Part shown: positions 17,014 through 18,040 of the stretch, piece by piece
Position numbering within the stretch: position 1 is the first letter of the stretch
Layout: the number at the start of each line of letters is the position of its first letter
Assembly (NCBI GenBank): GCA_016931415.1
Contig: JAFGEW010000132.1
Span: forward strand, 62,001 to 126,000
DNA length: 64,000 bases
Origin: Verrucomicrobiota bacterium
Lineage (GTDB): Bacteria; Auribacterota; JABMQX01; JAFGEW01
Reading direction: 5' to 3'
Position numbers and translations under genes: made by a program
The notes under the pieces: model-generated
The model's input: the letters and a program-made list of their open reading frames with translations, nothing else
What the model was told of the DNA's origin: nothing
The model's database searches: none

Positions 17014-17385
17014 CTACGGAGCGGGTGTGAGCTGCAACAGCTCCAGTAGCCGTGTGGCGACCTCCTCGAGTATCCGGTCGGAGGCCTTGCCGAGTCGTCT
17101 CCTCAACAGGCCTCTATCGAGGGCCGCGAGCCGGCAGATCCGGAACACCGAATCCACTTGGAGTCCACTCTGCCGGAAGTCCGCGTCCGCTTGGTGCAGC
17201 ACGAAGTCGCTCGTGCGGGCCTTTCGGGCCTGCGAAGAGATCATGAGACAGACAACGTCAGGATCCGATGCATTGTGTCCATCGCTTGAGAGGACAAGCG
17301 CGGGGCGCACCGCGTTGGAGGAGAGATCAGAGAAGGGAAAGCAGACCAGAACCACTTCACCCCTTCTGACAGTGGGGGCGTTCAC
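17014..17385 (-). CDS. MazF/PemK-like toxin
   Basis: A 123-aa protein with the MazF fold signature RRGEVVLVCFPFSDLSSNAV, then RPALVLSSDGHN and VVCLMISSQ, which shape the RNA-cleaving site in characterised MazF enzymes. It is therefore probably a sequence-specific endoribonuclease toxin. Its start overlaps the stop of the preceding 85-aa gene by 4 bp, the coupling expected of a toxin-antitoxin pair, but that neighbour does not look like a known MazE or AbrB-type antitoxin. Confidence 0.85.
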   Translation of the reverse strand: MNAPTVRRGEVVLVCFPFSDLSSNAVRPALVLSSDGHNASDPDVVCLMISSQARKARTSDFVLHQADADFRQSGLQVDSVFRICRLAALDRGLLRRRLGKASDRILEEVATRLLELLQLTPAP

Positions 17386-17639
17386 AGCGGCTCGCCATCC
17401 TCGATTGTGTAGATATCCTCGCCCGGGTCAGCGAGGTAGTCAAAGCAACCTGCCCCTTCGAGATGAACGAGTAGACGTTCGTCGGGAACCTCCGTATAGG
17501 CAACCGGGACAACCGCCCGCACGTCTACTGTGAACTGAAAGTACGTGTACTTGAACCGCGTCCCCTCGGCGATCGGAACGGACTCATCAGGAGGTTCACC
17601 GGGGACCTGCAGTCGCTCCTCCCTCAAGTGCGGACTCAT
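17382..17639 (-). CDS. Hypothetical small acidic protein, candidate antitoxin for the MazF-like toxin
   Basis: An 85-aa acidic protein, unrecognised. Visible features: a Pro/Glu-rich N terminus, a central hydrophobic strand pattern (KYTYFQFTVDVRAVVPVAY) and an acidic tail (DPGEDIYTIEDGEPL). It lies between the DUF6941-like gene and the toxin gene with 4-bp overlaps on both sides, so it is certainly co-translated. Position and acidity fit an antitoxin; there is no DNA-binding motif to confirm it. Confidence 0.6.
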   Translation of the reverse strand: MSPHLREERLQVPGEPPDESVPIAEGTRFKYTYFQFTVDVRAVVPVAYTEVPDERLLVHLEGAGCFDYLADPGEDIYTIEDGEPL

Positions 17640-18040
17640 CTCTGCTCTCCGAGCTTCAGCACTTCAAAAGGTCGGTTTCCGACGAGCACGCCGTCACACA
17701 GGAACTGGAACTCGTAGAGACCCGGCTCGGGAAACGTGATGCCGCGGATGTTGAATCCGAGCTCCACCACTGCGTTCGGACTCTGAAACTCGACTGGCCC
17801 TTCGACCTCAAGGATCGGGTTGCCTTCGGACGACTTGACGCACTGCAACTGCGCCTGGCAGCGGCCGCGCCCCTCTGTAAGAGAGACGAATACAGAGAGG
17901 GCCGGATGTCTTACCGGAAACGTCTTCGCGTTGACGCGGTTGAAGATTCCGACAAGGGTCTTCTTCCCGGTCTCTCGATCCTCGATTATGCTGTCGCAGA
18001 TGATGAACGCCAGGTTCTGCGGCGAAAGAGCATCCGGCAT
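17636..18040 (-). CDS. DUF6941-like protein
   Basis: A 134-aa beta-rich protein beginning LAFIICDSIIEDRETGKKTL and continuing VGIFNRVNAKTFPV, the pattern of the DUF6941 family as I remember it (small proteins of unknown role, often annotated hypothetical). The second half repeats a beta-sandwich style (VVELGFNIRGITFPEPGLYE, then FQFLCDGVLVGNRPFEVLKL). It is the first gene of a three-gene overlapping operon ending in a MazF-like toxin. Confidence 0.6.
   Translation of the reverse strand: MPDALSPQNLAFIICDSIIEDRETGKKTLVGIFNRVNAKTFPVRHPALSVFVSLTEGRGRCQAQLQCVKSSEGNPILEVEGPVEFQSPNAVVELGFNIRGITFPEPGLYEFQFLCDGVLVGNRPFEVLKLGEQR

Follow-up and report, generated by a model that had tools for sequence, protein, structure and literature searches.

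A three-gene operon in which the gene for a MazF-like toxin is preceded by genes for an acidic 85-amino-acid (85-aa) protein and a DUF6941 protein is found on the minus strand of a 64,000-nucleotide stretch of contig JAFGEW010000132.1 (hereafter the window), from a bacterium placed by GTDB in the Auribacterota (assembly GCA_016931415.1). The reading favoured here, with roughly even confidence, is that of a translationally coupled, three-part DUF6941–antitoxin–MazF operon in which DUF6941 is the dedicated partner of the antitoxin. The array itself, three minus-strand open reading frames (ORFs) in the order DUF6941 gene, 85-aa gene and PemK/MazF toxin gene, joined by 4-bp overlaps, had been noticed in a first-pass annotation of the sequence and is confirmed by the ORF coordinates and Pfam matches. 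Its parts are as follows.

17636..18040, minus strand: gene 1, DUF6941 protein, 134 aa (PF22091, E=3.6e-24, Pfam).
17636..17639, minus strand: 4-bp ATGA overlap of the gene 1 stop and gene 2 start, read from the sequence.
17382..17639, minus strand: gene 2, 85-aa acidic protein, probable antitoxin (no family match; its tail is common to proteins encoded before MazF elsewhere).
17487..17639, minus strand: N-terminal module of the 85-aa protein, residues 1-51, GTRFKYTYFQFTVDVRAVVPV, the proposed DUF6941-facing part (clear relatives only beside DUF6941).
17385..17447, minus strand: C-terminal tail of the 85-aa protein, residues 65-85, CFDYLADPGEDIYTIEDGEPL, the proposed MazF-neutralising part (invariant residues; PemK follows at relatives).
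17382..17385, minus strand: 4-bp GTGA overlap of the gene 2 stop and gene 3 start, read from the sequence.
17014..17385, minus strand: gene 3, PemK/MazF-family toxin, 123 aa, GTG start (PF02452, E=1.3e-15).

The same gene order is present in other genomes. Searches with PF22091 and PF02452 across 44 genomes of the window's phylum identified two (labelled G012 and G013; G and L numbers denote genomes and loci) in which a PemK gene lies about 280 bp downstream of DUF6941, with the same three genes and 4-bp overlaps at both junctions, while a trio in another phylum (G379) was reached through a search with the antitoxin's C-terminal tail, not through DUF6941. DUF6941 flanks were also fetched from 384 genomes across Bacteria and from three phyla, with a median flank of about 1.2 kb per side. 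Among the matches listed, a PemK ORF stands in the flanks of 10 of 215 distinct DUF6941 proteins, and in all ten cases the PemK ORF follows DUF6941 on its own strand, separated from it by a single small ORF; none is upstream or on the opposite strand. By our own arithmetic, chance alone would give about 0.4 such neighbours among 215 loci, assuming 10 PemK genes per ~3-Mb genome, which is the largest count for any genome among the best PemK matches listed. As the trios span four phyla, the arrangement is more than a chance one.

Nine trios are complete (G000, which is the window, G012, G013, G379, G178, G141, G394, G492 and G738), G394 being congeneric with G141; in a tenth, G473 (L201), the PemK frame appears broken. 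The junction between DUF6941 and the middle gene is a 4-bp overlap in seven of the nine, with a 14-bp overlap in G492 and a 3-bp gap in G379, and the junction between the middle gene and the toxin gene is a 4-bp overlap in six, with gaps of 8-9 bp in G178, G141 and G394. Flanking genes differ among the trios looked at and include, as named by eye, mutY, a LemA-like gene, a biotin-carboxylase-like gene, EF-G-like and DnaG-like genes, and a gene for an RRM protein. In the G738 trio, a promoter-like sequence judged by eye (TTGACA / CATAAT; L230:1170-1209, plus strand) ends about 8 bases before the DUF6941 start, which suggests a near-leaderless transcript.

Judged from its sequence, the third protein would be a toxic mRNA endonuclease (RNase) of the MazF family. 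It matches PF02452 (PemK) with 58 bits against a curated cut-off of 23.1, over 108 of 109 profile positions, matches MazF structures in the PDB at E about 2e-6, and is the sole PemK match in its source genome. Residues R27, P28 and S51 are invariant among seven relatives, and S51 stands about where Staphylococcus aureus MazF has Thr; R27 and S51 correspond to the conserved active-site Arg and Ser/Thr of PemK/MazF proteins. In a toxin tree, eight of the nine trio toxins group, though not as a separate clade, with the toxins of the tail-type modules described below; the toxin of G178 (L096) stands apart on a long branch. The toxin orthologue is not usually solitary, a possibility that would have spoken against the first-pass annotation: its nearest relatives are mostly encoded behind a tail-bearing ORF, though most are without DUF6941.

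In all likelihood, the 85-aa protein serves as the antitoxin. The first-pass description of it as acidic and devoid of a MazE-like motif holds, with 18 acidic and 6 basic residues and no AbrB/SpoVT (MazE), ribbon-helix-helix or helix-turn-helix domain in Pfam at E<=5; a degenerate MazE/AbrB domain was considered and rejected, since Pfam shows no trace of one at that threshold. No family is matched at E<=5 in Pfam or NCBIfam or at E<=1 in PHROGs, and the one match in PADLOC (E=0.037) is meaningless and at chance level. The AF2212-like domain PF01954, present in relatives L002, L003 and L006, is absent from it in Pfam. An AlphaFold model (mean predicted local distance difference test score, pLDDT, 49.6) was unusable and was left out of the evidence.

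The protein is bipartite, and its C-terminal tail, FDYLADPGEDIYTIEDGEPL, is also carried by other small proteins whose N-termini are unrelated, some of them being AF2212-like. L69, E74, D75, Y77, D81 and G82 are invariant among seven aligned proteins, and the 85-aa protein carries the pattern F-[DE]-[FYW]-L-x-D-P-x-E-D-I-Y-[ST]-x-x-D-G right before PemK that marks tail-type PemK antitoxins, an unnamed group defined in this analysis. Searching GTDB genome contigs with the 85-aa protein gave five loci, all matched in the C-terminal part only and all with a PemK gene directly after the tail protein (5/5); three of four tested relatives bear an N-terminal AF2212-like domain (PF01954) and the fourth another N-terminus. 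Profile A1, built from seven tail-protein rows of which three are trio members, matched 16 of 384 genomes, four of them being DUF6941 trios. A whole or partial PemK ORF adjoins the tail in eight of the 12 non-trio genomes (G074, G081, G124, G193, G233, G268, G331 and G337) and was not found beside it in the other four (G077, G228, G270 and G283); no DUF6941 was seen in the flanks of these 12. At least a partial PemK ORF also stands beside the tail in six of ten non-trio genomes matched by a second profile, A9, described below. The tail precedes PemK on plasmids as well, namely pAACI01 of Alicyclobacillus acidocaldarius (WP_015759733.1) and pANL of Synechococcus elongatus (WP_011055146.1). Because it mostly sits just upstream of PemK/MazF on unrelated N-termini, the tail can be regarded as the part that goes with MazF; it is likely the toxin-neutralising element of the 85-aa protein and, by analogy with MazE, may cover the RNA-binding face of the toxin. 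It appears to move freely from one N-terminal module to another.

Two further tail-bearing ORFs were observed. At L281:1100-1900 (minus strand) the tail is fused to an antitoxin that looks by eye to be of the DUF433 type, and a PemK gene comes after it. In a viral sequence, IMG/VR UViG_3300024429_000015, a 53-aa ORF (L124:2914-3075, plus strand) consists of little but the tail, AGSFDFLNDPSEDIYSLEDGEE; no PemK gene was found near it, and it may serve a phage as an antidote against MazF-type toxins of the host.

The N-terminal half of the 85-aa protein matches no known family, and its clear relatives are seen only beside DUF6941. When the tails were cut off and local alignments were compared with 1000 shuffles, the window N-terminus was related to that of G492 (z=10.6, 0/1000 shuffles) and G738 (z=5.4, 1/1000), as was that of G492 to G012 (z=4.3, 4/1000) and that of G012 to G013 (z=18). 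Profile A9, made from six trio middle proteins including that of G492, was searched in 300 genomes of the G178 phylum and matched 11; the only full-length match was in the G492 trio, itself an A9 row, and the other genomes, matched by the tail or by chance, have no DUF6941 in the flanks. Since the N-terminal relatives, as far as they are clear ones, track DUF6941 across loci and the tail tracks PemK, the reading proposed is that the tail serves MazF and the N-terminal module DUF6941. An N-terminal motif common to the MazF-type antitoxins and a putative VapB of L193, suspected by eye, was dropped, as no pair that included the latter reached p<0.1 in the shuffle test.

The first-pass annotation had left a choice between a new type of antitoxin and a toxin controlled by two proteins, and a combination of the two is now favoured. 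What does not stand is the novelty of the whole antitoxin, for the predicted toxin-facing tail is already widespread on small proteins encoded before PemK/MazF genes; the new elements are the N-terminal half of the 85-aa protein and the conserved DUF6941 gene in front.

In the mechanism proposed, the MazF-family protein would cut mRNA and the 85-aa protein would neutralise it with an acidic C-terminus (EDIYTIEDG) that lies on the toxin in the manner of the extended C-terminus of MazE. The N-terminal half, in which no DNA-binding domain can be recognised, would be a module confined to operons linked with DUF6941. The DUF6941 protein, made first, would bind this module and keep the antitoxin folded, stable or in place; the toxin would be set free when DUF6941 is lost or titrated in response to some stress. 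This scheme predicts that the third protein is toxic, that the tail neutralises it, and that DUF6941 is needed and binds the N-terminal module; its least certain step is the stabilising or sensing role of DUF6941.

Several observations weigh against such a dedicated partnership. DUF6941 is not beside PemK in 205 of 215 cases and in many genomes is a single gene amid unrelated neighbours, which argues that its basic role is something else. None of 27 other tail antitoxins has DUF6941 in its flanks (0/27), and the N-termini of the G379, G178 and G141 middle proteins are not significantly similar to that of the window (p=0.089 and above). Although the ten trio DUF6941 proteins all group within a single 42-member subclade (support 91) of a FastTree phylogeny of 213 DUF6941 sequences, which speaks for the partnership, the other 32 members are solitary and interspersed with them; at least seven changes between trio and solitary are needed within the subclade, which makes repeated gain or loss of the link, or its lateral spread, probable. 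Structure prediction lends no support to a contact between DUF6941 and the antitoxin, the models of both being poor (pLDDT 59.9 and 49.6).

The family is common, DUF6941 (PF22091) being present in 62 of 384 sampled genomes and in 184 of 392 genomes of one phylum, and the literature searched yielded no paper naming DUF6941 or PF22091. A solitary DUF6941 in G010, of the window's phylum (L055:1468-1914, plus strand), shares 47% identity with the window protein, more than any trio member in the aligned set does, has no PemK beside it, and is a possible case of loss of the toxin pair. A phage or plasmid origin of the operon was rejected, given that no viral relative of the window 85-aa protein or of DUF6941 and no plasmid DUF6941 was found.

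Among the alternatives, the one that survives best, though unlikely, is a two-component MazF module with a tail-type antitoxin in which DUF6941 acts as the operon repressor, as the first gene does in omega-epsilon-zeta and PaaR-PaaA-ParE, taking over repression because the antitoxin lacks a DNA-binding domain. This would suit the first place of DUF6941 in the operon, the want of a recognised DNA-binding domain in the antitoxin, the TTGACA-like promoter seen by eye right before the G738 gene, and the higher mean computed isoelectric point (pI) of trio DUF6941 proteins (7.8, n=10, vs 6.5 for the others, n=203). However, no DNA-binding fold is recognised in DUF6941, and the window copy is acidic, with a pI of 5.2. 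Upstream of the window operon, where a mutY-like gene (HhH-GPD and NUDIX domains) lies on the same strand at a distance of 86 bp, neither an inverted-repeat operator nor a sigma-70-like promoter was found, one 9-nt palindrome occurring just inside or next to mutY. Repression would also leave unexplained why the antitoxin N-terminal module tracks DUF6941.

A less probable alternative treats DUF6941 as a passenger: a two-component MazF module would have settled by chance downstream of an ordinary single gene and been kept there by translational coupling only. The largely solitary occurrence of the family is what such a passenger would show, and single PIN (L193) and RelE-like (L176) genes behind DUF6941 are what chance insertions might look like, but the same orientation and spacing recur in 10 of 10 cases against about 0.4 expected, across four phyla and differing flanks, within one DUF6941 subclade and with related antitoxin N-termini.

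The single-sequence AlphaFold model of the window DUF6941 is all-beta and of low confidence (mean pLDDT 59.9; predicted template modelling score, pTM, 0.49), making an all-beta sandwich probable. Foldseek with this poor model gave no match at E<=0.001 and was not used as functional evidence; its best neighbours, not significant, are carbohydrate-binding modules (CBM6 1uy1, E=0.019), and SecB is neither among the PDB profile matches at E<=1 nor among the 50 listed fold matches. A sensor role, in which DUF6941 ties the antitoxin-toxin complex to a ligand such as a sugar, a cell-wall piece or a phage protein that frees MazF, is the least probable of the alternatives: it has those neighbours and the precedent of CmdTAC, in which a capsid protein is described as releasing CmdC (PMC11618068), in its favour, but the fold matches mean little because the model is of low confidence, and the window flanks that were read show no defence-gene neighbourhood.

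The preferred reading of DUF6941 as a dedicated antitoxin partner may extend beyond MazF. Scanning downstream of all 213 DUF6941 genes for tight three-gene arrays revealed three loci (L202, L228 and L260) at which DUF6941 is followed, tightly packed, by a ~130-aa protein without a family and a ~145-aa HEPN-like protein, the label resting on one weak Pfam match (L202, E=0.092); a fourth, L242, was located by profile, and G738 carries both a MazF trio (L230) and this HEPN-like one. The four loci are a repeated association with DUF6941 and possibly represent another DUF6941-linked system. Two single cases were also observed, namely DUF6941, a 96-aa ORF and a PIN protein (PF01850, E=4e-11) joined by two 4-bp overlaps (L193:570-1734, plus strand), and a tight array of DUF6941, a 102-aa RelB-like ORF and an 89-aa RelE-like ORF (L176:643-1609, minus strand), the latter named by eye only, with no Pfam, PHROGs or meaningful PDB match. 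Both may be due to chance, because toxin genes are common. It is suggested, tentatively, that DUF6941 or some of its subclades is the first-encoded third component of tripartite toxin-antitoxin operons, binding an antitoxin module and serving several toxin types: MazF (10 loci), HEPN-like (4) and possibly PIN and RelE-like (1 each).

The operon resembles MazEF/PemIK in its PemK/MazF-family toxin and in the small acidic antitoxin, whose gene directly precedes that of the toxin and overlaps it by 4 bp. MazE bears a toxin-wrapping C-terminal extension, and the acidic tail of the window protein stands in the same place. The window antitoxin, in contrast, lacks an AbrB/MazE, ribbon-helix-helix or helix-turn-helix domain, and DUF6941 is an extra conserved first gene; without an AbrB domain, the operon is not MazEF by the MazE criterion. 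In omega-epsilon-zeta and PaaR-PaaA-ParE the first gene is a DNA-binding repressor; there too the third gene comes first, but DUF6941 has no DNA-binding domain by sequence. Two-gene PemK modules with tail-type antitoxins (AF2212-like, S. elongatus pANL and A. acidocaldarius pAACI01) share the tail and the PemK branch, and differ in their N-terminal modules and in having no DUF6941 beside them. Synechocystis Ssl2245, partner of the PemK toxin Sll1130, is described as RNA-binding and not assignable to a known antitoxin family (PMC12475003); this pair likewise joins PemK to a non-MazE partner, but as a two-gene system. XF1863 is reported as another non-MazE partner of MazF (Makarova et al. 2009, PMC2701414).

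By analogy, the window operon would work most like the toxin-antitoxin-chaperone (TAC) systems, such as HigBA-SecB of Mycobacterium tuberculosis and CmdTAC. In TAC systems a short added module, transferable between systems, is described as making the antitoxin depend on a dedicated third protein (PMC5105189), and loss of the chaperone as freeing the toxin (PMC11618068). The likeness would lie in an antitoxin with one end for the toxin and the other for a third protein, whose family is otherwise solitary (PMC5105189, PMC11618068). The third protein here is DUF6941, not SecB-like, and is encoded first, and the extra module is N-terminal, whereas that of TAC systems is the C-terminal ChAD. As it has no SecB, the window operon is not TAC by definition.

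To our knowledge, there are few tripartite toxin-antitoxin systems, and those of the chaperone type rely on SecB. A conserved DUF6941–antitoxin–MazF operon would add an unrelated third protein that decides toxin release, and would give the first functional handle on DUF6941. It would also define a MazF-neutralising tail that is combined with various N-terminal modules, making toxin binding and control separable. If the tentative extension to several toxin types is true, DUF6941 would match the SecB-like chaperones in role while having an unrelated fold.
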